From the NCBI RefSeq assembly GCF_027942865.1, contig NC_134514.1:15361965-15425964 (forward strand): a stretch of 64,000 bases of DNA. Direction: 5' to 3'. The position numbers were made by a program, and so were the translations under genes. Shown in pieces: positions 3,001 to 49,736 of the stretch (positions are counted from its first letter, which is position 1; the number at the start of each line of letters is the position of its first letter). The notes beneath the pieces are model-generated. The model made no database searches. It had not been told where the DNA came from and saw only the letters and a list, made by a program, of their open reading frames with translations. Origin of the DNA: Odontesthes bonariensis (Eukaryota > Chordata > Actinopteri > Atheriniformes > Atherinopsidae).

Positions 3001-4329
3001 GGATGGGTGTACGCCTTGTAATGTTTGCAAGTAAGCAAACCCAACAACAGATGTCTTGTTCACCTAATGTACAGCCTGTTTCCTTTTATCACCTCTTTTA
3101 TTTTCAGAACGTCTTCATTTTTACATGGTAATGAAAAGCGCAAGCATTTTTGTCATGGTCTTTTTCAAGCAACTGAAAGCTGTTGTTCATTAATGACATT
3201 CTCTTTCACTAAATCAACTCACACATGTTTTCAGCATGGTGTATGTGCAGTTGAAAGAGAACTGTGATACATTAAGGACTGACTGCAGGACTTTGACATC
3301 CTCTAACAGCTCAAATTGAATGCACTGTATTTACTGGGTCCATTAGAGCTCAAAGGACCATTAGGCTCGGAAATATTGTGAAATATTAAAGAGAGGAGGG
3401 GACATTTTAGTTTACACGGTGCTGAGCCAGCCAGCCCATGTTCTCTGGCACTACACTAGCAATATGCTGTACGTTTATAATGTCTATGGATGTAACTTCT
3501 GAGGTCACTGAGAGTTAAGATGGCTACACATGACTGGAAGTTTTTCAGTGCACAGCAGCGGCCTTTGTGCTTTTGCACATGAATATCCCTCAGCCCTTGC
3601 AAAAAAAAACTGAAAAAAACCTCATAATGTGCACCACTGAGTCTTGTGAAACCAGCCAGATCACAAGCTTTTGACCAATTCTGTCATGTGTACTGTTCTA
3701 TTTCTCAAATACTATGGTACTATCTTTGTCCTCACATCAACTGCTGAGGGGTAACACATACTGTTTGGTACAACATAATCAGGTACAAAAACTGTATGCA
3801 AAGAAAATCTTCATTTTAAAAAAGTAGAAAGTAGTCGTGTGTATCAAATGTTTAAATTGTTTGAATATAGAAATGAATTCGAATTAATAAAACTGCTAAC
3901 TTGCAAATTTGTTTTGTGGCTTTCCCATTGTGAATTTGGTCCAATTCATTCGTGTGAAAGAGTTCTAGAATCTGGAGTGCAGGACTGGCCTTTTAGTGTT
4001 GGGTTGCTTTGGTAACCTGATCACTGCAATCAGAGGGATAAACAAAGCAGTAAACACATGAGTTTACAAGTCATTTAAACGACAGTGTGTATTTCTGGCA
4101 TGCTTACACATACCACAATGAAATCAGACACATTCACATGCACAAACATGCTTGTGCATACGGCACATCAACCACCGGCCTCATAAACAAAGCACAGGCA
4201 TAAACATACAACGACCCTTTTCCCATATCTCCAACAGGGATGGTTGGAGATGGTTTGACAGTCTGATGACACAAAATTATTAAATCGGGGGAGGAGCAAA
4301 AATAAAGTGAAAAAAGATATAAGCTACAC
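1..4329. other. intergenic DNA, no gene recognised
   Basis: AT-rich teleost intergenic sequence. Open frames here are short (the longest about 100 codons, on the minus strand at 85-396), lack recognisable domains and are not joined by convincing splice sites. I see no RNA gene or clear mobile element. Distal regulatory sequence cannot be excluded without conservation data. Confidence 0.6.
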
Positions 4330-11833: not shown

Positions 11834-14800
11834 ATGAGTGTGTGTGCCTGCAGAGCTTCATACCTGCGGAGGTGGTTGCTGAGCGCACTGTTGATCCTGG
11901 CTGCTGTGCAGCCCTCGAGTGCTGACTGTCCCAATTCATGCGTCTGCCACGTTAGGGCTGAAGTGCACTGCACCTTCAGATACCTGACCGCAATACCTGA
12001 CCACTTCCCACCAGCTGTGGAAAGAATCAACCTCGGGTAAGTGATCCAGCTTTTAGCAGATTGTACAACTGCGTTCTCTGGGGAAGAATAATTATACCAC
12101 ATATTATATTTAAGCCACGGACTATAAGCAGTCAAAACACTAAGATTACAAAGAAACTACTGTTAGCTACTATATTTCTAGAAAGGCAGTTACTGGTAGT
12201 AAAATAAGCATCTGGCTTAGACTTAAATAGATGTTTAGATTGACTGAATAGTGTGACTAAAATGTGCAGCAACTTGCACAATAGCCAACGCTTTCTCGAG
12301 TGAACAGCTATCTAAACAACTAACCGAGACAAAATATTCTTTCCTCCTTTTTTTCTTCTTTTTTTCTTGCTCACACTTACACATAAATACATCCATACCT
12401 ACAGCACACTTGCCACTCAGGTTTGGCTACTGCTAGCAGATGTGGTTCAGTCACCTTATCCACTTGTCTGGTGGTGGTAAAAGATTTTGTTCTATTTTTG
12501 TTTTGTATTAATTGACTCTAAAACCTTGTGTTAGTTTTATTAGTAAAGTAATACACGTCCGCAGTGCTCACCCACAGGTGTTTTCATTTTGTTTTGCCTG
12601 ATTAGACCTCCTTTTAAGATGTCACTGAGCCAGAAAAGAGCATTTTCACAAGAGGCAAGGAACAGACATTATGACTTAGCTTTGGCAGATTTACACAAGT
12701 GTAATGAGCTATTTTAGCTGTATAATAATTCCCTCAAGGAGCGTCAGATCTGAAGACAAGCTATGGCTTCCTTGGGCAAGGATAGCATCACCACTGTTAT
12801 TAGTAACACCTGTGCTTTGTCGGTTGTGACAAGTTGATACATGTCATAAAAAACATGATCGGAAGTTAAAAATAGTTGCCCTGTTCTCTCCTGAAATGAA
12901 TTTGAAGTTGACTTTAGTGTTATTACACCCTCAGGGTTATGTAGTCTTGTACAGTCCTGCCTCATATTGCTTGTTTGAGAGGTAAAACTCAGATTTTTAT
13001 ACAATCAGGCAGTTCAACTTCCGCCTCTAACACAAAATACTGTACTTTTACTGAACAGCTCATATATGTTAAAAGTAAATGGACAGCTATGAAGTGATTT
13101 CATTCATATGATGTTAGAGATACAAAACTGTTGTAGAGTATTAGTGAGAAGGGATTTTGTCACATGTAGAAAACAGATTTCAAAGGGATTTATACTTGAG
13201 TATAAATCTTCTGTCGCTGGGACCAGCAACAAGTCCAAATGTGTCCCTATTAACCCTCGCCTACATTCACCTACAGGGGTGTTTTCACCTATTTTTCTAA
13301 TAAGACCTCTTCTTATTACCATATATATGGTAAGGCTGTAAGAATTACGGTGACGTTATTAATTGACATTATTAATTGTTAACCTTCAAAAATTTCCCAA
13401 CCTTCTGAGCAGAAATATTGAGTACTTCAATACCCTTGTGTGGTGGTTCAGGACCTTTAATGAGATACTTGTTTGCTAACATTTGTATTTCGTAAATCTA
13501 CAAATTCAGTCATACTGATGATCATTAGGACAATTTAATGTCTCTTTTTCATTTCTGTGCTTTCAGGTACAACGGTATAACTGTCTTGAGAGAGAATGAT
13601 CTTTCAAGCCTTGAGAAGTTGGAGCTGTTTATGGTGCACAGCAACACTATACACAGCATTGAAGACAGAGCTTTCCAAGACCTCAAGTCATTACAGGTAA
13701 AGTCATGTGTCAGTCTTTTATGGTCCGATTACAGTACTGGAAAATCAAAAGTATATTGGTGTATGACAAGCCTTCAGAAAATGCATGGTTCAGTTCAGTA
13801 CGAGTGCATGATGACATAGATATCAAGAAAGTGCATCAACTGTATATAAGTAGGTTTTGTGTGCTTCTTATTTACTGTTAATGAGAGATGAGAATTTTTG
13901 ACATTCTTGCAATTTTATTTAGTCTTGATAATGTTCATTTCAGGAACAAGTTGAAAATTTATTTAAGATAATATGATTACTAGGATTAAGTAAACACCTT
14001 TGCTATCAAATGGACTATGGAATGAAACATTCTGTGATCTAAACTTTCTTCTTACTCCACGAAAGCTGCTTCTTCACTTAGAATCACTAATAGACTCCAC
14101 ACCATATGGAGACACCTTTTTTTAAAAATAAAGTACACGTAACAGCATCTGTGCATTTTTTGTTTTATCCATGTTGCCAGCTAACATTCTTCAAAATAAA
14201 ATTATTTTTTGCTTTACATTTGGATTTATATCAGTTCAGAAATCCTAAGACTTATGTAGAACTATGATGTAACTGTAAAGCAATGATAAGCAGCTGAACA
14301 CAATCCAGCACATTTGCATCACAAATCACAGACTTGCAGACTGGAGTTATTTCAGTTCCTCTCAGAGACAGAGTTCCAAGCACCACAAGCTTCAGAAAAA
14401 AACTGTTACCGTAGAGCTTTTTGTTTTCCACTTTTTTTTTTCACTTACTTTTTCTAAACAATGATCTCAAGATTATTGGCACTTTTTCAGACTAGATAAA
14501 CAGTTTGAAGACAATAATTACATTTTTGTGTATTTACATCACAGTCATGAATCATTACTGTTTTAACAAACTTTTCTCTCGCAGGTCCTGAAACTGTCAC
14601 ACAATAAAGTAAAGGAAATCAACAAAGAGACATTCAAAGGCCTGGACAGTCTGCTGAGACTCCACATAGACCACAACCACGTTGAGTTTATCAACCCAGA
14701 GGCTTTCTACGGCCTGACAAACTTGCAACTGGTCAATCTGGAGGGCAACCACCTTCAGCAGCTCCACCCAGACACATTCATCACACTGAGACACAGCCAG

Positions 14801-17800
14801 GTTTTTAAGGTGTCCTCAGTAAGAACCATCCACTTGTCAGACAATTTCCTGACCACTCTGCCTGCAGATATTTTCTCAGGCTGCAGTCAGTTGGAGAATG
14901 TCTTCCTCCATGGTAACCCCTGGATGTGTGATTGCCGTATGGAGTGGTTTTCCGTGTGGGCACAGAGGAACACAGGTGAGCGGTACACCTGCACTTTCTC
15001 TGAATTATTTCGAGAAATGTTAGGATGTAATATGCTTATAAGCGTTAAAAACCTCTCCTCTGTGAACTTTAGAAATCCATTTCTGCTCAGATGTTCAGTG
15101 GTATGTTTTTCTCCTTAAAACTGGTCGAGCATAAAGTGTTACCCCAGGCAAGACAGACATATCCAAGAGAAACATATTAATCTTTGCAGTCAACATTGGA
15201 GTCAGAAATCATAATGTTTCACCACACAGGCTGCAGAAAACTCTAAAGAAACAGGACAACACAAGGCAGTTTTTGATTCATGACTTGGCTATAGCAAAAG
15301 TCAGCTCAAATATTAGAATTTTGTCCAGTGATGATAATCTTTTTTGGTTCACACGTTTTACTATCAAATTTCGATTGAGCTGGCCTATAATGTGGAAACT
15401 GTAAATGTTCTCACTCCTTGCCACCAACTATACACTCTTAACACTTGATAATCATTTCCAGGTGTGCTGAAATGCAAGCGAGACAGGAGTTATCGGGGAG
15501 GCCAGCTGTGTCCTGTTTGTCAAAATCCTGCTTCTTACCACAACAGACCACTAGCCCTGCTCCACAGTGATGCCTTTGCTTGTACTAAACCCTGGATCAA
15601 ACCCCATCTAAAGCAGAAAAACATTAGCTTGGAGGAGGGGGACTTCACTCCAGTTTCCCCCAAGGACTTCATCGCCCCCTTAGGCTCCATACAAATTAAC
15701 CTGGCTGACCAGTTCTACAATGATGCCAGTCTGTCCTGCACTGTTCAGAGGCCCACTGCATTTGAGAACCTGACACAAACCTTAGAGGAGGAGGAAGGAC
15801 ACAATGTTACCGTTCTTACTACCAGCATGATTACATATTTGGTGTGTAACATTGACTATGAACACATCCAACACATGTGGCAAATCCTGGCCACCTACAG
15901 TGACTCTCCTATGAGGCTAGAAAGAGGTTTAATGCTGTCCAGAACACCCGAAATGGTGTACAGATATAGCCAAGTAAAGGAGAAAGGGGAAGAAAATATT
16001 GCAAACATTGTGGCTGAGATTAAAGCCTCTCCTTCATGGTTAATGCAGGGAGAAGTGAGCCTCCAGCTTGACCGTACTACTACCACCTTTTCCACTCTGC
16101 ATATCAAGTACCAGTCTGTGGTGAAACTACGCGTGGAAAGTGCACCATCTAAAAGGGGCCACTATTCCTGGACCATGATTAAGAGAAACAATCAAACCAA
16201 GACTGAGCACACTGTGATCACAGGTGGGGATTCCTGACTTTAATTACTGATAATCTTGCTGATTAGTGATGCGACCTTCAGTAATACTTCAGTATTACAA
16301 TTTACAAATCAGGGAGGATTATAATTCAGAAAGATTAAGAGTGTATTTTGTTTTAGTTTTCAAAAAACATAAATACTCTGATTAATTATTTACTTTTTAA
16401 CATAGGTGGTGTGGCACAGTTGAGCTGTCAAATTCAGGGTGAGCCAAAGCCTCTGATGGAGTGGATTTTACCAGATGGAAGTAAGGTCAGAGCTCCTTAT
16501 TCCAGTGAGGACAGGAGGATCATAATCACTGCTGAAGGGAAGCTAACACTTCGTGGTGCAGATGCCTCTGACACCGGACTCTACTGGTGCATTGCCACAA
16601 ACTACCTGGATGCAGATATCCTCATATTTCGAGTGACAGTGCTTTCTCCTGATGTAGAAGAGGTGGAGGTTAATGGTCTTCAACTTTCAAAGTCACTTGG
16701 TGAAAAGCTGGTATTCGACTGTAGCTCCACAGGGAGTCCTGAGGCTTCAGTTTCCTGGATTCTCCCTGACCACTCAGTACTGGACAACTCTCAAGGGAAC
16801 AGAAACATGTTTGAGAATGGGACACTGCTGATTAAGGGCCTCACAGCAAGGGATCGGGGATTTTATAGGTGTTTGGTTGCTAATCACCTGGGAGTTGACC
16901 TGCTCGTGTCTCAGGTGACACTGAATGAGGAAAGGCTCGAGGCTGAGACAGTCTTGGATAGTGAGGGATCAGGGATGGTGATGGAGGTCAAGGTGGATTC
17001 TACCTTTGCAGAAAGTACAATCAATCCCAATGAAAATCCCTCCTCCAGTCCCGCTGACAGAACTACTCAGGAATTCAGGACTATAACCTCAGATCGACCT
17101 TACCCTAGATCCAGATTTTTGGGCAGAGGAAGTTCAGGGGGTAGACTGGGACAGAGAAGGACAGGGGCAGCTCGGAACAGACACATTTGGAATAGCAGGG
17201 TCTTTGATAAAGCTTCCAGGACAGTTGATCCCGTGAAATTTGCTGAATTTCTGAAAAAAGCCCAGCATGGATCAAGGTTAAAAACTGGCACAGAGAATAA
17301 AACAGAACTAAAACATGAAAACCCCCACAGTCGTTTTTCTAGTGATGATGAAATTGGCTCTGGTGAGGGTCATAATGAAGACCATTCTATTGTAGTCCCG
17401 GGGATAGTAGAACCAACTAAAGAATCAATAACAGCACAGAAAGGTGAGAGTCATATTTTAACAGCAGGGGTGCAGCAAATTGTTGATGCAGAAAACGCAT
17501 ATAGCCATTACATTCAGTCAAGTAAAATGAAAGAAAATAAAAATACACCAACAACAGAGACTTATATGCAATCAGATTCTACACCAGTGAGGTCCATTTT
17601 CACTCACATGCCAATTCCAATTGAGACAACAGAGTTTTATGCTTTGGAAAAAAACAGTAATTCACTCCTGAACATACAGCCAGTCACTCTACAACTTACC
17701 TTGGCAGACACTGAACAAGAAACTCAACTCAAGTTTTCAGGAGAACCACCTGCAGAGACAGAGACATCCACTGGGGCGGTGTTAACTTTTACTACAGACC

Positions 17801-20800
17801 CTAATGTTACTCCAATGAGGGATGGTCCAGGCCCAATGGAACTTATCATCCACACAGACCCTGAAAGCCAGACCACATTCACAGCAATCACCACCACAGA
17901 GCGACAGAAGGACGAGATCACCTTTCACACTACCCAGACAATAAAATCCCCACGCCTGTCTGCGGGATCCACCATCATCTCCCAGCAGAAGATCCATATT
18001 ATCCCACACAATAACAGCAGAGGAAGGGGTGGCAGACGGGTCCTCCATGGTCGTAGGAGGATAATAAAACCCAACAGGATCACTGACATACAGTCCTTCA
18101 TCAATAGGCTTAAACAGCCCTCTATAAGGAAAGATGGAAATACCTCTGTGCCATACCAGATTGAATTGACCTCAGGTAAGACAGCCTGTTGTGATGCCAG
18201 CCATGATTCAGTTTGTGCTGCATGTTCCATGTATGACTGATTTCTCTATCAGTCTATGAATTTTTCTAAGTCTATGCATGTTTTTTTTTCTTTTGTCAGA
18301 TTGTAATTGTGATGAAGACAAGAAGACAGTAAACACTAATGTGCAGCTCATTACACCCACTGCTTCCTCCAATCCCTTTCTAAGTAAAACAGAGAGACCT
18401 GCATCTATACAAAAGACTGCAGCTTCTTCCACAAATCGGCACAGTACTGCAAATGCTCCCTTCAGTCATGCTGAGTCTATAACATCTGCTGATGCTCCTG
18501 AAATTGATCCTACAGATGATCCATTTTTTACCTCAAATAAAGGACTGTCATCCACCACACCCACAACTACAACGGCATCCAAGGTTATTCGTGGAAGAAT
18601 TCCATGGAACAGGCTGTTTGGAGGCAAAGAAAGGGAAAAGATACTGAACAGGTTAAAGAGGCCATCCACCCGAAGAAAAACTTCAACTATAGCTCAGACT
18701 ACAACAGTGACACCAACCACAACCACTGCTGCTATGCCCACCAATAAGCCAATCTCAATTCCTGAATCTGAGACGAGATCCACTCCACCATCTGTACACA
18801 AGCAGCACAAAGAGAGCTTATTCGATGATGACTATGAAGGTGTAGCCTCTGCAGATTTTGAGTTCACAACAATGCGACCAAACTTTCAACATATAATTAC
18901 GACAAGTTTACCACATTACCCCAAGTCTTTTACCACTTCTGAAACACCTGCAGAATTACAGACTCTGCCCTCTCCAGCTACCGTGAATGTACATTCTGTT
19001 GAAAATCCCGATGAAGCATTGTCAGGCTCTGGGAAAATACCTGATAATTTGCTTGTAATCAGACAGAGGCCTGGTGGGACAAGGGGAAGACAGGGGCAAA
19101 GAAGGAGGCCTTTTTGGGGCAGGAGGCCTTTCAGGAAACCTGGAATCACTAAAGTAATTCCTACCACTACAACTGGAGCTTCAACTACAGAGGAAACAAC
19201 TATGGAAACTACAGTGAAAGCCACGACACAATTTCAACAGACTGTTTCCCTTCACAGTTCCTTGCACACACCATCAAGGGCTGTTTCCATTGACCAAACA
19301 TCAGGGAAGACTGACTTATATGACAAATTTGACTGGACATCGAGCAGTTTACTGACCTACACTACCACCAAGACTCCTTTTATTGCTTCAACCACTTATA
19401 ATCCTACCACTTCTTTACTGATACCAGTTACCACAAAACGAACTTACACAACAGCTCAGACCAGAATCCACAGTCACATCAGACCACCAATACAGAGGAA
19501 GAATGAAGACACCGTACGCAGGCCACCAATGAGAAGAATCAGACCCACAGCCCAAAGCAGTAGTGTCAGAGGCAGTGCAGATAAAGGCCTTATCTTTGAC
19601 ACAATGACCATCTTTACAGCTGAGCAAGGACACAACACCCATGATTCATACAACAAGGGAATGCATATCTCTTCTATTTATAATAATGTACCTGACAATA
19701 AAGGTACCACTGCTAGTACTCCTGGATTTGAACTCACTACAAAGACCTTGACAAGTAAGCCAAGTATAGTTGGTGGAAATGCAGCTAGCTTTACTGTTTT
19801 GTCCAACTCAGATGCTTTCTTGCCATGTGAGGCTGTAGGAATCCCACAACCATTTATAACCTGGAAACGCTTCTCCTCAAGCACAGGTACACACACAATT
19901 TAATCAATTGTTAAAAAATCTAAAGTTTCAGAACATTTTCAGGTAAATAGTTAAAATAAATACAATTTTTAAACATGACATATTTGAGATCTGAAAATAC
20001 AATGATTAAAGAGCTTGATTTTATAATTTGGCTATTGTGAAATATGTGAAAAAAAATGTAAAAGATTTTTATTTAGCAAAAGCAGTGCTTATTCAGATTT
20101 TGTAAGTCTTCATGTTGAATGTGTTTTTTTTGCTCTCTCTCTTAGGAAACACAATGACTATTAAGGGAAGGATGGGCAAGTTTGAGGTGTTGAGCAATGG
20201 CACCCTGTCCATCCAGAATGCCAACATAAAGGACCGCGGCCAATATCTTTGTCTTGCTGAGAATGATCATGGAGCAGATAAGCTTCTTGTCACCCTCTCT
20301 GTGGTAGCTTACCCCTCACGTATCCTAGAGCCAAAAATGCGAGATATGAAATTTCATACAGGAAACACAGTGGAGATGAAATGCAAAGCCGAGGGCAGGC
20401 CCATACCAGTGATTTCCTGGATTTTGGCTAACCGGACCCAAGTCAGGGATCAGAACACAGAGAAGGGGAGGGTATCAGTATCTTCTGAAGGGACTCTAAT
20501 AATTGAGCATGTGTCTGTGTATGATAGAGGTTTTTACAAATGTATCGCCAGTAACCCAGCTGGAGCAGATACTGCTACAGTCCGACTACAGGTGGTGGCA
20601 GCTCCACCGGGCATTGTTGAGGAAAAACGTCAGCAGCTAAAAGCGAGCTTGAGCCAAACCTTGTGGCTACCTTGCACAGGCCATGGCACCCCTCATCCAA
20701 ATATTCACTGGGTTCTTCATGATGGATCAGTTGTCAAAGCTAACAGACGTGCCAGTGACCCAAGGATATCAATGTTAGAAAATGGAACGCTTCTCATAAA

Positions 20801-23607
20801 ACATGTGACCTTTACAGATAGTGGAAAATTTGAATGTATTGCTACCAGCTCTACTGGTTCAGAACGAATGGTGGTGACTCTGACAGTAGAGACACAAGAG
20901 TCTGCACCTCAAATAGTAGAGACATCTGAGCCCATAACAGAGTTGTCTTATGGGGATCAGTTGAGTCTAAACTGTTCAGCAACAGGAGATCCTAAGCCAA
21001 GAATCATCTGGAGGCTACCTTCTAAAGCTGTTGTTGATCATTGGCACAGGTGAAAATACTCATCTAAGTGGCATAAATGTACAGAATAACACTAAAACAT
21101 TTACAGAAAACATATCATTCAAAACTAAAGTAAACAATGAAAGCATTTTGGAGAGACAAGTAAATCTTCTCTTAATAATGTAAGGCTGTACTAACCAAAT
21201 GACAACAAGTTAATGATTTTCACTAAAAGTCAGGAATGTGCAACTGTAATCTGAAGAAAAAAAAACACAAATGAACATCTCAATGGATCGTTTTGTCTAC
21301 TAGTGATTAGTATTTTGTTGTCTTTTTCACATCCTGATCTTAGGTTACCTTTATATATCTCATTTTTAGTTTAGTGCATTTGATGTTTTTAGATGTCTTC
21401 ATAAACCACAGAATTCTGGAGTAATGCCACAACAGGGTAATTATTTTTTAGATTGGGATATATATAACATAATTAAATTCAGTCAGATTAGAACTGAAAT
21501 CACATAATTTGAAATGCAGAAAGCCTTTACAATGATATGTGTGTGCATGCTTGTATGTGTGTATCTTCTATGATATGACTCTTGTTTTATGCTGTGTAAT
21601 TTTCCAGGATGGGCAGTCGAATTAAGGTTCTGGATAATGGTACTCTTATCGTTAATACACTGAGTGATAAAGATGCTGGAGACTATATCTGTGTGGCACG
21701 AAGCATGATTGGTGATGATCTTCAGCTCATGAGAGTCAGAGTATCAATGAAGCCTGCCAAAATAGAGCCTAAGCTTTATGGGAAGAAGCAAGTTTCCTAC
21801 GGTAATGACTTGAAAGTTGACTGTAAAGCCTCTGGAGCACCGAAGCCAGAGATCTCCTGGGGTCTACCAGATGGTACAGTGGTCAACAGTGCTTTGCAGT
21901 CTGACGCTAGCCATGGAGGGGGACGAGCAAGACGCTATACTCTCTTTGACAATGGAACGCTTTATCTAAACCAGGTATACCATTGCATCAACTATAAGCT
22001 TGAATAAAACGTACAAAAACAGATTAAAGTTTAACAATAATTTCATGTGTCTTCAGGTTGGAATATCAGAAGAAGGAGACTACACCTGCTATGCTGAAAA
22101 CCAAGTGGGAAAAGATGAAATGCACGTACATATCACTGTGGTATCAGCTCCCCCCAGGATACATCCACCTAGCCAGACCTATGCTAGGGTGAAGCCTGGG
22201 GATAATATTCGCTTTGACTGCGAAGTGTTTGGGGAGCCCAAACCCAAGATCTTGTGGATGCTTCCTACCAATGATGTAATAGCGGCATCAAATGAACGCT
22301 ATTTAATGCATGTCAATGGTTCTCTGGATATTAGGGATGTGAAGCTAGTTGATGCCGGGGAGTATGTTTGTATGGCTCGTAATCCTGGTGGAGAAAACAG
22401 AAAAGTTTATAAACTGGACATAAATGGGAATCCACCAGTGATCAATGGCTACCGACAGAACAGGACTGTAATTAAAGATGTTGCTCCAAAACACTCCAGG
22501 AAACTTGTAGACTGTAATGCGGATGGTGATCCCACTCCAACTATCACATGGATTATGCCTGATAACATATTTCTTCCAGCACCATACTTTGGCAGCAGGA
22601 TTATTGTTCACCACAATGGGACACTAGAGATTCGTAACGTGCGGCCTACCGATACAGCAGAATTCATTTGCTTGGCAAGAAATGATGGGGGTGAAGCAGT
22701 ATTGGTAGTGCAGCTGGAAGTTACCAGCATGCTTCGAAGGCCAATCTTTAAGAACCCTTTCAATGAACGCATAATGTCTGGTATTGGGAAAACAACAGTT
22801 TTGAATTGTTCTGCTAATGGGCACCCAATCCCAGACATGATTTGGATTTTGCCCAATGGAACACAATTTACTGGTGGATCCAGCCATGACTCTCACCACC
22901 AACTAGGCAATGATGGGACCTTAGTAATCTACAACTCTCAGAAAGAAGATTCTGGGAAGTATCGTTGTGGTGCCAAAAATTTTCTGGGTTATATTGAGAA
23001 GGTAATAATTTTGAATATTGGGCAGAAGCCTTACATCCTGACAAGACCCAAGGGCATCATACGCAGCATGTCTGGGGAAGTCCTGTTCCTTCACTGTCTG
23101 TCTGATGGTAGTCCGAGGCCCAAGATCTATTGGACCATTCCTAATGGCCACACTCTTACCCGGCCTCAAGTACTAGGGCGCTACCAACTGCTAGAGAATG
23201 GCACCCTAGTTGTTCAGGATACTACTCTCCACGATCGAGGAAACTACATCTGCAGGGCTCGTAATGATGCTGGGGAGGCAGTGCTCACTGTTCCTGTTAG
23301 TGTCATTTCTTACCCTCCACGGATAACTACAGGGCCCCCTCCCAGTGTAAGGGTAGTATTTGGGACACCTCTCCAGCTGAACTGTGTTGCCTCCGGGATC
23401 CCCAAGCCAGAGATCACCTGGGAGCTTCCTGATCATTCAGTTCTGTCAGCAGCAGAGCAAGGACGGCCTATGGGTAGCGAGCTGCTTCACCCTCATGGTA
23501 CACTTATCATCCAGAGGCCCACAGCATCAGACTCTGGCAGATACGAGTGTCTGGCCAAGAACCACCTCGGTACAGACTCCAAGGTCACATTTGTACGTGT
23601 AATTTGA
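11834..23607 (+). CDS. igsf10: Immunoglobulin superfamily member 10 (LRR + 12 Ig domains)
   Basis: Secreted matrix-type protein; human IGSF10 is linked to early migration of GnRH neurons. Nine coding exons join in frame: 11834-12036, 13567-13696, 14585-14975, 15462-16223, 16406-18175, 18300-19886, 20146-21049, 21608-21974, 22057-23607, giving about 2554 residues (human about 2623). All introns are GT-AG. The start gives a signal peptide (hydrophobic core LLSALLILAA), then a CxxxCxC LRR N-cap, leucine-rich repeats to about residue 220, and an LRR C-cap (NPWMCDC). Twelve C2-type Ig domains follow: two at about residues 498-685, then ten from about 1590 to the end. Between them lies a Thr-rich, basic, low-complexity spacer of about 900 residues. 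I prefer IGSF10 over its paralogue MXRA5 because CTFRYLTAIP, EFINPEAFYGL, LVCNIDY, LPSKAVVD and RRYTLFDNGTLY follow human IGSF10 closely and P2RY12 is the next gene, as in human 3q25. Confidence 0.93.
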
Positions 23608-38956: not shown

Positions 38957-39130
38957 TTTCTGTTAAAAAACTCTGAAATTTTATGTGCAGAAAAGATTCA
39001 AACTCAATACACTGTAATATGTCTCAAATGTTTTCTTGATTCTAGTGATTTTGATGTGTTTGCTTTAAAAAAAAAATGTACATGTAAGGTTTTATTCCAC
39101 TTTTTTCATCGTTGGTAAACCAAAACTAAC

Positions 39131-40076
39131 AAGTGAACACCTGGATGAGAGAGAATTTTCTACAATTAAATGAAGACAAAACTGAGATCATTCTGTTTGG
39201 TAGCAAAGAGAAGAGAGTCAGCGTTGGTAAATATCTTGAGACTCGGGACCTTACAATCACTGACCAAGTTCGTAACTTCGGAGTGTTGATAGACTCAGAT
39301 CTGACTTTCAGCAGCCACATCAAAGCTGTCACCAAGGCAGCTTTTTACCATCTCAGAAACATCAACAGAATTAAAGGTTTCCTCTCCCAAACAGACCAGG
39401 AGAAACTCATCCATGCATTCATCTCCAGTAGACTCGATTACTGTAACGCTCTTTTAACTGGACTTCCCAAAAAGAGCATTAAACATCTGCAGCTCATCCA
39501 GAACGCTGCTGCTAGAGTTTTAACCCGGACTAAGAGATCTGAACACATCACACCAGTTTTAATATCTTTACACTGGCTTCCAGTCAGTTACAGAATAGAT
39601 TTTAAAAGCCTGCTGATGGTTTACAAATCCCAGAACGGTTTAGGCCCAAAATACATCTGTGATATGTTCAGAGAATATAAAGCCAGCAGAGCTCTGAGAT
39701 CCAAAGACTCAGGTCAGATGGTCCAGTCCAGAGTCCAGACTAAACATGGAGAAGCAGCATTTAGCTGTTATGCTGCAAACAAGTGGAACAAACTGCCAGT
39801 GGAGATTAAACTTTCACCAAATGTAGACATTTTTAAATCCAGGTTAAAGGCATTTCTTTTCTCATGTGTCTATGCATGAAATATCTTTTAACTTATCTAG
39901 ACTGTTGCCTATTTTTAAATTCATTTAAATGATTTTATTTGTTTCTCTTTATATTCTTTTATGTAATTTTAATGCTTCTTACACTCCCTGCTGCAATGCT
40001 TTTATTTTATGTAAAGTACTTTGAACTGTTTGTACATGAAATGTGCTATACAAATAAATTTGATTTGATTTGAATT
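39131..40076 (+). mobile_element. 5'-truncated L2/CR1-group LINE with open reverse-transcriptase tail
   Basis: An open frame of 248 codons (39133-39879) encodes the C-terminal part of a non-LTR retrotransposon polymerase. Recognisable segments are NFLQLNEDKTEIILFG, NFGVLIDSDLTF, FISSRLDYCNALL, LQLIQNAAARVL and LHWLPVSYRI. The catalytic fingers and palm are absent because of 5' truncation. The 3' end is a non-coding tail finishing in a TTTGAT repeat near 40050-40076, as L2-type LINEs have. The uninterrupted frame suggests a fairly recent insertion. It cannot move on its own. Confidence 0.88.
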
Positions 40077-40398: not shown

Positions 40399-40469
40399 CA
40401 GATATACGGAGCCCCTTGAGTCTTAAGGTGAAATATATTGGGGTGTCGAGAAAGCGTGCACCCGTTTTA

Positions 40470-40800
40470 AAAAGCGCGCTCTCATTTAACCAAACCGTGC
40501 TCTCCTTAAAATATAGCAAGCGCACGTTTACCTAAATCGTGCGCTCGAATTACTAATGTCGTGTACTCGCTGTAATACAGTCGTACTCACGTTATATCCC
40601 TCGTGAGCACAATTTACTGAAACGTGTCTTCACTTTGCAAAGTGCGCGCTCATTTAACCAAAACGTGCTCTCGTTGAAATACAACGTGCGCACGTTTACC
40701 TAAATCGTGCGCTCGATTTAGTAGTTTCTTGCTCTCGTTGTAGTAACAAAGTTATATACCTCGTGACCACAATTTACTAAAGCGTGGTCATGATTCACAA
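40470..40800. repeat. subterminal array, left arm, with 160-168 bp tandem duplication
   Basis: Many units of the form CGTGCKCTCG with AT-rich spacers. The block starting near 40483 (CATTTAACC) is repeated from 40651 at an offset of 168 bp; CGCACGTTTACCTAAATCG recurs at the same offset (40521 and 40689). TCGTGASCACAATTTACT recurs at offset 160 (40601 and 40761). So a larger tandem duplication is superimposed on the short-unit array. Confidence 0.85.
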
Positions 40801-40862
40801 AACGTGTTAACGTTATTTAAGAAACGTATAGCCTAATTAAAATTGGCACAAGTAAGCAAAGC

Positions 40863-41105
40863 ATGGCCACGATTCCACACTCTCATAACATCATGAGCCA
40901 AATTTACCAGCAGGATATGATTCTTAACCATTTTGAAATGGACTTAATCAGGGTTTACCATGGGCTAGGTATGGAATACAAGAATATTCTTTCAACCTTG
41001 GCGTCCAGTCATGGCATCATCATGAGCCTAGTTGACTCAAAGTACTTCACACACCCTCACCTGTTCTCAAGGCTGCCTTGTAAGGCGCCCAAGTCAGGGC
41101 TGTAG
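40863..41105 (+). pseudogene. N-terminal fragment of transposon integrase/transposase
   Basis: An 80-codon open frame. Its middle part (about residues 30-55, GLGMEYKNILSTLASSHGI) resembles the N-terminal helix-turn-helix of integrase-like transposases of fish and cnidarian elements, in which a tyrosine-hydrophobic start is followed by an EI..LA..HGI..S core. The expected arginine-rich continuation (SxRTLKR type) is replaced by SLVDSKYF, so the frame has decayed or is shifted. The catalytic domain does not follow. It is part of the deleted element and cannot be an active enzyme. Confidence 0.55.
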
Positions 41106-41157
41106 CCAAATGAAAATCCTAAAATATTTATTTGCATTCGTTAATTTTTTCCCCAGG

Positions 41158-41489
41158 ATGAATTGAACAGCATCCAAGACACATGGAATGCACATCGCAT
41201 CCGTCCGTCCAGAAACCCAGGTGTTCCGGCTGGAATACCGGATATAATGCACCTGGCTCCGCATCTGTGGGGGGCTGAAGATCATCTCTTTTCTCTCGAT
41301 GAAGCCAATCTGACCGTCTGCAAGTGGAAATGCACCTTCCTCAACTCCATACCATGCGACATCGATGTATTTGATTTTTGCACAGGCATAATGCAAGAAC
41401 GAGGGTTACAGTTGACAAACAGTCCAGACCAAGCACTTGAATTATACATTACATTAAGGGACACTGTTCGTCCCATAATACTTGCTTAG
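41158..41489 (+). pseudogene. C-terminal fragment of transposon integrase/transposase
   Basis: About 110 codons, starting after a splice-acceptor-like TTTTTTCCCCAG at 41145-41156. The start reads ELNSIQDTWNAHRIRPSRN and then GVPAGIPDIMHLAP. This is the W-N-x-H-x-I-R-x-S-R ... GxPD signature found at the C-terminal end of the integrase core in related elements. The region between this and the helix-turn-helix fragment is missing, including the D-D-E residues. It supports the reading of an internally deleted, non-autonomous copy. Confidence 0.6.
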
Positions 41490-41599
41490 GCATACATTCG
41501 CCATAGCACAATGCACTTACTGTTCCATTCCAAGCAACTTCCAAATAGATTAAAAAGGTGAGATGCTCACCCTGTAATGGTAACAGATTTCGTGGCCAC

Positions 41600-41870
41600 A
41601 ATTAATACAACGTGCGAACGTTTCAAGCAATTTGGATTTATTGTTGCCATATAGAATGTCGTGGGCACGTCTTACAGATCGTGGGCACACTTTTGTTTAT
41701 TGTGCTCACAAGGTATATAATGTGGGCACGACCGAGGGGCAGTGAGCGCACGGTTTTAGTAAGACGAGCGCACGGTTTATGTATACGCGCGCACGCTTTA
41801 TTTAGACGAGCGCACGATTTAATAAAGCGAGGGCACACTTTGAAAAGTGAGAGAACGCTTTCTTGAAACC
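41600..41870. repeat. subterminal array, right arm
   Basis: A series of GAGCGCACG / GTGGGCACG units spaced about 22-30 bp apart, oriented mostly opposite to the left-arm units. They include near-identical consecutive copies at about 41752-41820. Both strands stay open through the array, producing spurious repetitive reading frames. Such arrays usually serve as transposase binding sites; that role is inferred here. Confidence 0.8.
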
Positions 41871-42071
41871 CCCTGAAAAAGATATTGTTTGATCTCCACC
41901 GGGCTCCGTACAGATATGACTAATGCACATGAACAATAAGTCTGATCCACAGGGCCTGAGGGAACTCAATGATGGCTTTTTTCTTGTTGGTCCCTGCACT
42001 GATTTGGTCAAAAATCAGCTAAAAGCCAGTTACTCATTTAATTTGTGTATGTTTTCTTACAGATCCTGATA

Positions 42072-43058
42072 ATGTACAGCAACACGTCCAACATCTCCAA
42101 TGACTGTGCCCAAACCAGCCTTCTGATCCCAAATGTGGTTGTTGCTTGCCTCTTCTTCTTCATGTTCCCCGCTGCATTACTCTTCAATGGGGCCGCAGTG
42201 TGGGTGTCTAAGCATCTGCGGTCCACCTCAACTTTCATAGCGTATCTAAAAAACCTGGTAGTGGCTAACACCCTCTTGACACTGACACTCCCTGTGATTG
42301 CTGCAAACAAGCTTCCTGGAGCAAAGTTTCAGTTGAAGGTCTTCACCTGCCGTTATGCAGATACCATTTTTAACACCAGTTTGTACACAAGCATCTCCTT
42401 AGTGGGTCTTTTCAGCCTGGACCGCTTCTTCAAAATTGTTAGACCATGTGGAAAGATGTTAGGACAAAATGTGACCTTCAGTATGATAATGTCCTCATTG
42501 GTCTGGGTTGTATCATTTGGCAGATTGGCTATCCCAGCTATCGTTCTAACTGGCCAGACCACTAGTAATGAAACAAAAGAATTCTGTATGTCCCTCAGAG
42601 GTCAAGCTGGCATGGGTCTTCACAAATATGTACAGATATGCTTTTTTGGTTTGTCAGCATACTCATTGTGTTTTTCTACATTTGCATCACCATGAATGTC
42701 CTGCAATCCTTCAGAAACTCGGAGAGCAACGACAGACGAGGAAAAAAGAAGACACAACTACGAGTCTGCTTGATACTTCTTGTATTCTTTGTGTGTTTTG
42801 TGCCTTTGCACTTACTGCGCATTCCTTTCATTCACTATCAAATGATTGACGCTGTTTTATGCCCTGAACAGTGGGTACTGATAGCACACGAATTAGCTGT
42901 CTGGGTGTCTTCCACCAACACCTGCCTGGACCCTTTTCTCTACCTTCACTTGTGCAAAGTAGTACAGAGAAAAATTTGGTAACATGATGAAGGACAGTGG
43001 TCTCTGTGTTAAGTTAATTTGTGGTAATACAGAAAAACTCTCAGGGAAAAAAAAGTAA
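42072..43058 (+). pseudogene. P2Y14-like receptor with two frameshifts (pseudogene or assembly error)
   Basis: A P2Y12-subfamily seven-transmembrane receptor, broken twice. The first frame (42072 to about 42647) covers the N-terminus to TM5. It then shifts in a run of six T (42642-42647) into the frame that holds TM5-TM7 and ends at 42982. After a run of five A (42970-42974) the original frame resumes and gives a C-tail ending at the stop 43056-43058. That tail aligns with the tail of the next gene (MMKDSG... and TEKL against MIENGF... and KEKL). One missing T and one extra A would therefore explain both breaks. A splice acceptor (ends 42062) sits 9 bases before the start, so a 5' untranslated exon exists upstream. 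The TM3 motif is DRF. Closest in the window to the gene at 46213-47453. AATAAA stands at 43359. Whether it is dead or misassembled cannot be told. Confidence 0.8.
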
Positions 43059-46212: not shown

Positions 46213-47453
46213 ATGATGGATGAACACTTGGATCTCCACTCTCATAGTAACCATCAAAGTGAGTATAGAACACAAATAAGCCACTCCATCAGATGAAAAT
46301 GTAGAAATACTAGATTAATCATGAATTGTTCATATTTTACTGCACACACTCGACAGGACAATTTGTGCCAAGGACAAATGTTGTTCCGTGTATTTATATC
46401 TGTCTTGGAAACAGCCGAAATGTGGGCTCTAATGTGTTTTCCTTTTCCTTAGGTGGAGTGAACACATCACACCCAACATCGCTCAATGATTCAAAGTGTG
46501 ATGTTTTATCTTATAACCCTTATATAATCCCAACTCTCTTCTTTTTTATGTTCCCCGTAGCTTTGTTGCTGAATGTTGTGGCCGCCTGGGTGTCTCTGCA
46601 CCTTAAGTCTACCTCCACTTTTGTGGTCTATCTGAAAAATCTAGTAGCTGCTGACATTATTATGACCCTGATGATTCCAATCAAAGTTGCAGATCATTTG
46701 CCAGGTGCATGGGAGAAATTAGCTATACCTTCATGTCGTTTTTTCTCTGTCTTCTTCTACAACACACAGTACACATGTATCACTCTGTTGGGCTGTATCA
46801 GTCTGGACCGTTTCTTTAAGATCATGATGCCCCGCAGCAGATTTCTTTGTCAGAATTTGACCGTGAGCAGACTGATATCAGCCTCAGTCTGGGTGATTTT
46901 GTTTGTAGGCACAGGTTTACCAAATATGATTTTAACAAACAAATCAGGGGCTAACATTACAGAGGTCACTTGTATGCTCCTGAAAGAACCAGCAGGGATA
47001 GAGTTCCATAAAAAAGCATCACTTTCTCTGAACGTTTTCTTTTGGCTTGTCAGTGTTGTCATTGCGGTTTGCTACATTTGCATTGCGAACAAAGTCATCC
47101 AGTCTTACAGAAACTCTGGCAGCAATAACAGCCAGGGAAAGCAGAAAATCAAGCTACGTATTTTTCTGGTGATCATTGTGTTCTTTGTGTGTTTTGGTCC
47201 ATACCACCTCATCAGGATCCCCTACACTTTTGAACAAGTCAGCTTTTCCTCTAATACAGATTGCTATTATGCACAGATGACGTTTGCCAAGGAACTCAGC
47301 CACTGGCTCTCTACAACAAACATCTGCATGGACCCACTTCTCTATGTGTTCCTGTGTCGAGAGTTCAAAGAGAAACTCATGTCTATGATAGAAAATGGGT
47401 TTGTCTCTTTTAAAGCAGCTACAGGAGGAGACAAAGAAAAACTGCCACACTAA
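46213..47453 (+). CDS. P2Y14-like nucleotide receptor (P2Y12 subfamily GPCR)
   Basis: Intact seven-transmembrane receptor of about 348 residues. My model uses a short first coding exon 46213-46258 (starts MMDEHLDL, ends at a strong GTGAGT donor) joined in phase 1 to 46453-47453, after the acceptor CCTTTTCCTTAG. If the splice is not used, an in-frame ATG at 46326 would start the protein instead, but it lacks the N-glycosylation-rich context. TM3 ends in DRF, TM6 has FFVCFGPYHLIRIPYT, TM7 has AKELSHWL and MDPLLYVFL. The LPNMILTNKS segment and GPYHLIRIPYT resemble P2RY14 (UDP-sugar receptor) most, but orthology to P2RY14 or GPR87 is not settled and ligand residues were not checked. It is a tandem sister of the broken copy at 42.1 kb. 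AATAAA at 48293. Confidence 0.82.
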
Positions 47454-48329: not shown

Positions 48330-49736
48330 TGAACATGTTATTGGGATTAGGCTGGTTTAAGTCATATTTATCTGAAATATTTCAGTTTGTTCTTGTAAAT
48401 GAATAATCTTACTCACACACCAGAGTAGGTCATGGAGTTCCTCAGGGTTCTATGCTTGGACCGATTCTTTTCACTTTATACATGCTTCCATTGGGTAACA
48501 TTATTAGACAGAATGGCATAAATTTCCATTGCTATGCTGATGATACTCAGCTGTACTTATATATGAAACCAGATGAAACCAATAGGTTGGTCAGACTACA
48601 AGCATGTCTTGAAGACATAAAGACCTAGATGACTCAGAACTGTCTGCTTCTAAATTCAGACAAAACTGAAGCTGTTATCTTTGGACCTGAGCGCTTCAGG
48701 GAGAAATTGTCTAGCTATATAGTTACTCTAGATGATGGTAATTGGCTTCTTGTACTACAGTGAGGAACCTTGGAGTTATTTTTGACCAGAATTTATCATT
48801 TGACTCACGTATAAAACAGGTTTCTAGGATTGCCTTCTTTCACCTTTGTTATATTGTTCAAATCAGGAACATCCTGTCTCAGACTGATGCAGAAAAACTA
48901 GTCCATGCATTTGTTACTTCAAGATTGGACTGCTGTAATTCTTTATTATTGGGCTGTCCCACATATTCTCTGAAAAGCCTCAAACTGATCCAAAATGCTG
49001 CAGCCAGAGTTCCAGGAGAGATCATATTTCTCCAGTTCTAGCTTCTCTTCATTGGCTCACTGTTAAATTCAGAATAGAATTTAAGATTCTTCTCCTCACA
49101 TATCAAGCTCTTAATGACCGAGCTCCATCATTTCTTAAAGATCTCATTATGAGATATTTTCCTAACAGAGCACTTCACTCCCAAACTGCAGGTTTACTTG
49201 TGGTTCCCAGAGTTTCTAAAAGTGGAATTGGAGGCAGAGCCTTCAGTTATCAGGCTCCTCTCTTGTGGAATAAGCTGCCAGTACATGTCCGGGAAGCAGA
49301 CACCCTTTCCACTTTTAAGACTAGGCTTAAAACTTTCCTTTTTGATAAAGTTTATAGTTAGGGATCGTTCAGGTAATCCTGAAACATCCCATAGTAAAGC
49401 TGCTACAGGCCTAGACAGCTGGGGGGCCTCATCTATCACACATTTCCTCACTTTGCTCTCTTTTTCCCCTGTTTAATTTCTCAAATTATATTATGTACAT
49501 GTGACATTATTGTGGTCATTAACTTGTGTTTCCTTGTTCCAATTGTTGGCTTCCTTAGCTAGGAAATTGTTTTTGAATTGGCTCTATATGAATTAATTGG
49601 ATTATTTTGAAATTAATTATGATTACAATGAATTTAACTCCAATTGGCTAGAATTGGACTGTATTATTTAAGTGCCTTGAGATGACATTTGTTGTAATTT
49701 GGCGTTATATAAATAAAACTGAATTGAATTGAATCA
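48330..49736 (+). mobile_element. decayed L2/CR1-group LINE, reverse-transcriptase half plus 3' tail
   Basis: Starting near WFKSYLSE (about 48352), the sequence continues through a [13 protein letters not shown] motif and the polymerase active site CYADDTQLY (about 48530), to SDKTEAVIFG, TVRNLGVIFDQNLSF, FVTSRLDCCNSLL and LIQNAAARV. A stop at about 48627 and at least two frame changes (near 48740 and 49010) disable it. The 3' tail ends in a GAATT repeat at 49736. It belongs to the same clade as the LINE at 39.1 kb but a different family, since the tail repeat differs. Confidence 0.88.

Follow-up and report, generated by a model that had tools for sequence, protein, structure and literature searches.

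What kind of element lies close to a receptor gene in a 64,000-nucleotide stretch of the Odontesthes bonariensis genome (NC_134514.1), and how did it come to lack the catalytic part of its transposase? The whole stretch is called the window here, and coordinates are window positions unless a locus (L or C number) is named. A first-pass annotation, made from the sequence alone, had described an internally deleted, IS3EU-like transposon whose arms could influence the neighbouring gene. The analysis presented here makes it very likely that the element belongs to a young group of non-autonomous cut-and-paste DNA transposons of the IS3EU kind (IS3EU/GingerRoot), a family that arose by the loss of 781 bp from a 2.3-kb element. 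Its mobilisation is most likely in trans, and its remaining coding pieces are most likely relics. The deletion had been recognised correctly; as judged from the copies compared, it marks the origin of a family that was then amplified and is not damage to the copy in the window. The family is new, whereas its kind is already known, and no new principle is involved.

Structure of the element and its full-length partner

The element spans 40405-41910 (1,506 bp) and is bracketed by CAGATA on both sides (Table 1), an exact duplication of the target site, as first annotated. Its ends, TACGGAGCCC and GGGCTCCGTA, form the expected terminal inverted repeat (TIR), which is perfect over 10 bp, and inward of it imperfect inverted stretches of 187, 107, and 66 bp are 71-75% complementary. 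The long imperfect arms, built of repeats of about 21 bp, were absent from the earlier description. The two transposase pieces were found where they had been placed, with no catalytic middle between them; the second open frame (41145-41489) holds DELNSIQDTWNAHRIRPS, and the C-terminal piece bears the motif W-N-x-H-x-I-R-x-S. When each piece was searched alone against Pfam, with E up to 1, no family matched. The N-terminal piece aligns with L031, an IS3EU-like relative described below (41% over 44 amino acids, aa), and helix-turn-helix (HTH) models matched only on L031, below the cut-off (Clr5, 0.043; HTH_33, 0.15). The term HTH-like is thus a label of the first-pass annotation and of this report, with Pfam support below the cut-off.

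The content of the missing middle is seen in L058, an element of 2,275 bp on the minus strand of contig C25, which has the same ends as the short form and carries CCTATG on both sides. Its outer parts are 96.8% and 98.8% identical, on the two sides, to the consensus of the short form. The transposase of L058 is encoded by a two-exon gene. Exon 1 is an open frame of 324 aa that comprises the HTH-like part and an integrase core with the acidic residues D-58-D-40-E, and it is followed by a 181-bp GT-AG intron, in phase, after which the protein continues with DELNSIQDTW. The core matches the Pfam model rva_4 (PF24764, E 6.4e-23), which was the sole match on the 297 residues of L058 searched; no zinc-binding N-terminal model matched there. 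A search of solved structures with the core gave no meaningful match (best E 0.28). By coordinate arithmetic, the short form is without 781 bp of L058, which hold the integrase core, the end of exon 1, and the start of the intron, and in it exon 1 runs directly into the intron at an AG common to both sides of the deletion. The first-pass annotation had named as confirming evidence a full-length relative in which a DDE integrase separates the pieces and 6-bp duplications are present, and L058 is such an element.

Table 1. Coordinates of the element, its parts, and the neighbouring exon in the window
Feature	Position	Strand	Basis
Left target-site duplication CAGATA	40399..40404		Sequence; exact 6-bp duplication in 41/46 family places
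Left terminal inverted repeat TACGGAGCCC	40405..40414	+	Inverted-repeat pair I22; same end in L058 and L031
Left subterminal array, CGTGCGC-type units of ~21 bp	40455..40840	+	Motif and periodicity analysis
Transposase exon 1 remnant, N-terminal HTH-like region, shortened by the deletion	40863..41029	+	Open reading frame (ORF); undeleted in L058
Deletion junction at 2-bp AG microhomology	41030..41031		Comparison with L058
3' part of transposase intron, CCCCAG acceptor at its end	41032..41156	+	Comparison with L058
Transposase exon 2 (DELNSIQDTWNAHRIRPS...), C-terminal to the integrase core	41157..41489	+	ORF and L058 gene structure
Right subterminal array, in register with the left, inverted orientation, 71-75% complementary	41581..41880	-	Inverted-repeat and register comparison
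Right terminal inverted repeat GGGCTCCGTA	41901..41910	-	Inverted-repeat pairing
Right target-site duplication CAGATA	41911..41916		Sequence
P2Y14-like receptor coding exon, neighbour outside the element, frame split near 42620-42650	42063..42982	+	ORF, paralogue, and structure comparison

Copies of the short form and their target sites

The genome (945 Mb in 187 contigs) was searched with the element DNA and with both protein pieces, and the copy counts from these searches are lower bounds. In the DNA search, 40 of 142 candidates were scored and all 40 copies are full-length, with 99-100% identity; short-form copies are spread over many contigs. The last exon, for which 150 of 202 candidates were scored, gave at least 150 matches; 126 of these reach an identity of 92% or higher, and the other 24 lie at 38-64% and include a fragment of the interrupted short-form copy L029. 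With the HTH piece at least 146 matches were obtained (150 of 156 candidates scored), and a count of the rows showed that 97 of them span the deletion junction (residue 6 or lower to 79 or higher), while five carry undeleted frames of 323-324 aa, one of these with a TAG, and the remainder are partial. In the core search, where 150 of 677 candidates were scored, the whole 243-aa core was found without a stop at no fewer than five places in the genome, and at about five further places the core is long but interrupted or incomplete, with an identity of at least 91%. The comparison of 97 junction-spanning short forms with about 10 core-bearing places indicates that the short forms are in excess by roughly ten to one.

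Target-site duplications were tabulated from 50 loci with a match to an end, which gave 46 distinct places: L009 is the same place as L001 and L012 the same as L005, L008 was left out on account of flanks that agree with those of L005 over 15 bases, and L013 has a single end only. At 41 of the 46 places, all with both ends intact, the duplication is exactly 6 bp, and these 41 comprise 40 different hexamers. Other copies thus share both the ends and the duplication length of the window copy, as the first-pass annotation would have it. The target site is loosely palindromic, with C or G in first position in 32 of the 41 duplications and in last position in 26, and with an A/T-rich interior; in the flanks, A stands four bases before the duplication in 24 of the 41 and T four bases after it in 19. 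An empty site was also found: the L028 copy lies inside a repeat, and the repeat copies L030 and L033 are uninterrupted at that point, with a single GTCATG. This site belongs to L028, another copy of the family, and not to the window insertion.

The short form might have been spread without transposition, by segmental duplications or by an assembly that repeats one locus. Such a process could account for L005 and L008, which lie on one contig with identical flanks, and for the copies at C12:13363353 and C29:6795255, which have identical scores. It is at odds with the empty site at L028 and with the presence of copies on many contigs, and the fact that 41 exact duplications comprise 40 hexamers in different flanks refutes it at the large majority of these 46 places. 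As an account of the family, spread by duplication is considered extremely improbable. L005 and L008 are both on C16, 5.6 Mb apart, and their identical 15-base flanks reflect either duplicated surroundings or one repeat matched twice.

Assignment to the IS3EU superfamily

In the excerpts available of the cited sources, IS3EU elements are described with TA..TA ends and duplications that are usually of 6 bp (PMC10045372), and the IS3EU families of rust fungi with TAYGG..CCRTA ends and TIRs longer than 30 bp (PMC12730594). According to the same excerpts, IS481EU has TNT..AYA or TGT..ACA ends and duplications of around 4, 15, or 25 bp, whereas the duplications of Ginger1 are of 4 bp and those of Ginger2 of 4-5 bp (PMC10045372). 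IS3EU is already known from teleosts (PMC12763893, PMC4746887). The TACGG..CCGTA ends of the element fit both of the terminal motifs excerpted for IS3EU, and its 6-bp duplications, exact at 41 of 46 places, fit as well. As regards TIR length, the repeat of the element is perfect over 10 bp and then continues in imperfect stretches of 187, 107, and 66 bp (71-75% complementary). A DDE core without the HHCC zinc motif is present in L058 and missing from the window copy. The excerpted values rule out IS481EU by ends and duplication length, and Ginger1 and Ginger2 by duplication length. The name IS3EU-like, given in the first pass, is thus borne out by the termini, the duplications, and the DDE core of L058, as far as these partial sources define the group.

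It has nonetheless to be weighed whether the element belongs not to IS3EU proper but to GingerRoot or IS481EU, adjacent groups whose integrase is related. The superfamily name is based on the termini, the duplication length, and the Pfam integrase model, and by these features GingerRoot is inseparable from IS3EU, a point that weighs against the assignment. For IS481EU, neither the ends nor the duplication lengths fit in the excerpted account, and TAYGG..CCRTA is the very end given for the rust-fungus IS3EU families in the excerpt of PMC12730594. A placement outside IS3EU proper is therefore regarded as unlikely.

Age of the family and the leftover coding pieces

In an alignment of 44 copies, taken from places ranked by their likeness to the window copy, divergence from the consensus is 0.13-0.93%, a lower estimate for the family given that the copies were chosen by likeness. 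Private substitutions average 3.0 per copy (n=44), and the window copy and five others have none; the eight differences between the window copy and the consensus are all common to sister copies. Fish genomes accumulate a few substitutions per billion sites each year. At this rate, zero private substitutions in 1,506 bp would fit any age between essentially the present day and about half a million years. The window insertion is thus very young and perhaps polymorphic, and the family has probably been active recently.

Counted as distinct changes, the ratio of non-synonymous to synonymous is 15:9 in one coding piece and 24:14 in the other, against an expectation of about 3.1:1. Taken together, 39 of the 62 distinct changes are non-synonymous (pooled binomial p 0.026; 0.15 and 0.09 for each piece alone), which speaks against the pieces being pure relics. 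This deficit, together with the fact that both frames are free of stops in most of the rows listed, would agree with the retention of the HTH and C-terminal pieces as a regulator, for instance a repressor, of the full-length element. The HTH-like part, however, is cut and takes its tail from the intron remnant, and open frames are accounted for by youth alone. The ratio, moreover, was taken over the distinct variants of 44 copies selected by likeness to the window copy and includes shared variants, some of which may predate the deletion, as well as CpG decay. For these reasons a regulatory role is held to be quite unlikely, and the pieces are likelier to be relics, despite a ratio that leans against strict neutrality.

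Subterminal arrays and CpG content

The arms are rich in CpG, with observed/expected ratios of 1.80 on the left (40405-40840) and 1.48 on the right (41581-41910), whereas the window as a whole has 0.33 and the middle of the element 0.48. A 15-base unit, with up to 3 mismatches allowed, matches 13 times in the window versus 0.54 expected, every time within the element; three of these places match on both strands, which leaves 10 distinct places. In either arm the units follow one another at intervals of about 21 bp, in register when counted from each end. Both arms of the element have an autocorrelation at lags 20-22 higher than any of 500 shuffles. The same holds for the left arm of L031 and for the right arm of a second relative, L035, where the margin is small (0.437 versus 0.419 for the largest shuffle); no 21-bp peak was seen in this analysis for the left arm of L035. 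The boundaries of the arms of L031 and L035 were picked for this test after inspection of the sequence.

These arrays of about 21 bp are putative binding sites for the transposase. The idea that the CpG of the arms had been spared from methylation was dropped, given that private CpG transitions are raised in the arms as well. Per site and copy they amount to 0.43% in the arms, versus 0.15% for other G/C, and to 0.66% in the middle, versus 0.13%; these increases of about three-fold and five-fold are what would be expected if the copies are methylated. The ends of bacterial IS3 and IS481 elements are short, unlike these long, CpG-dense arms of arrayed units. It is tentatively proposed that phased, operator-like arrays of about 21 bp, that is, two helical turns, could be a feature of IS3EU ends in general, with a motif that varies by family, that the transposase might assemble as a multi-subunit array on the CpG-dense arms, and that the family, including the window insertion, may be mobile and polymorphic today.

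Proposed origin and mobilisation

As the comparison with L058 shows, the family arose from a 2.3-kb element with one gene when the 781 bp between a pair of AG dinucleotides were lost, whereby the integrase core went and both ends and both arrays were kept. The short form is most likely mobilised in trans by the transposase of undeleted copies. This enzyme would bind the arrays of about 21 bp and the TACGG ends and excise the element, and insertion at staggered cuts would then give rise to the observed 6-bp duplications at loosely palindromic, A/T-centred sites.

Several observations weigh against this scheme. Among the four core-bearing places that were read, L058 alone looks whole: the HTH part of L059 has a stop and the two sides of its duplication agree in 5 of 6 bases, a 1.34-kb insert (L060 980-2317) interrupts L060 3' of the HTH-like part, and L061 is rearranged, without ordinary ends, in a head-to-head fusion with another copy. 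In addition, 5 of the 46 places deviate from the 6-bp rule, three being without a duplication, one having 7 bp, and one being mismatched.

The three places without a duplication (L021, L039, and L047) have intact ends, and recombination between copies is possible there. The spacing seen in L060 is similarly wide or interrupted at several other places, and a subfamily may carry an insert of this type.

Two longer loci were considered as autonomous partners and rejected. L029 (4.2 kb) is a short-form copy with a CACTGCA-ended insert that has a 3-bp CTG repeat at its borders and is presumably EnSpm-like, and L037 (2.3 kb) is a short-form copy with a TAGTGATGC-ended insert and an 8-bp ATCCAAGA repeat, which we take to be hAT-like. 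L030 was likewise set aside, as it has a last-exon piece only (60%) and no bounded element.

Relatives in the same genome

L031 starts with TACGGAGCCCTT, has units of the CGTGCGCACC type (CGTGCGC-type) every 21-22 bp, and shows the layout of HTH-like part, rva_4 core, intron, and last exon. Its core is 59% identical to that of the element family and its last exon 42%; the right end of L031 was sought and not found. On the opposite strand, downstream of the transposase, L031 has a frame with a HECT domain (3230-4135, +; PF00632, E 1.4e-5), which may or may not belong to the element. Fungal IS3EU elements carry other extra genes, according to the excerpt of PMC12730594. A literature search joining IS3EU and HECT found no paper in the library covered, and among the papers listed by a broader search on integrase, HECT, and fish none contained the term HECT domain.

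When the loci of seven relatives (L030-L036) were searched for a bounded IS3EU-like element, one was found in L035 and, under that test, none in the other six. The L035 element has 6,687 bp and TACGGAAG..CTTCCGTA ends, of the TACGG..CCGTA type, with GCTCTG on both sides. Viral contigs were also searched, where one stretch matched a pattern and no relative of the C-terminal piece was encoded.

More distant matches to the core are clustered. On C3, between 33.18 and 35.89 Mb, there are at least 27 rows of core matches, 34-35% identical to the family core, with frames of 258-272 aa, one of them with a TGA, and one further match of this type is on C67. In locus L062, positions 689-1465 form one open frame with HVDGNHK, RTDHRGEN, and NQRIERFN. 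The similar scores over about 2.7 Mb of C3 suggest an amplified block and not dispersed transposition. A second local cluster, on C19 (3.165-3.365 Mb), has at least 10 rows of short core pieces, among them seven with one TGA.

The neighbouring receptor gene and other features of the window

The splice acceptor AG that follows the element (42061-42062) ends about 146 bp beyond it, in good agreement with the roughly 150 bp first estimated. The best match of the frame that follows, annotated as a G protein-coupled receptor, among solved structures is P2Y14 (E 5.3e-31). What had gone unnoticed is that this copy is frame-disrupted. The paralogue at 46314-47450 is a single open frame, whereas this copy shifts to another frame from about 42620 onward, in a stretch with a T homopolymer, which points to either a pseudogene or a homopolymer error of the assembly.

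The close position and the CpG-dense arms would allow the insertion to alter this gene through its promoter, its splicing, or CpG methylation. The acceptor and the preceding 146 bp, however, lie outside the element, and the suggested influence is weakened by the fact that the receptor copy reads in two frames; an effect on the gene is accordingly rated as very unlikely. For the receptor cluster, what the analysis adds is a very recent insertion, and caution is warranted before any effect of it is claimed.

Elsewhere in the window, frames with leucine-rich repeats and immunoglobulin-like parts lie upstream (14567-23604) and resemble, we presume, IGSF10. Frames at 39130-39876 and 48939-49358 have a likeness to the tails of non-LTR (long terminal repeat) reverse transcriptases, a tentative assignment by motif.

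Comparison with known systems

With IS3EU, as the excerpted sources describe it, the element shares TA..TA ends of the TAYGG..CCRTA form, 6-bp duplications, and, by way of L058, a transposase of the DDE integrase type. It differs in that its perfect TIR is short (10 bp) and is continued by long imperfect arrays of about 21-bp units, and in that the core is deleted in the window copy. A literature search joining IS3EU and subterminal found no paper within its scope. A young short form of IS3EU and an undeleted partner with an open frame, both in one vertebrate genome, make a ready system for this little-studied superfamily, suited to asking how IS3EU cuts, what the subterminal arrays do, and whether movement is ongoing. 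The closest comparison is with L058 itself, which has the same ends, arrays, exon parts, and splice acceptor as the window copy and, in addition, the 781 bp with the DDE core.

The Ds elements of Ac and the internally deleted P elements are known deletion derivatives of this kind. In those systems, as in the family described here, a short non-autonomous form outnumbers the full-length element and keeps both of its ends, although the superfamilies differ.
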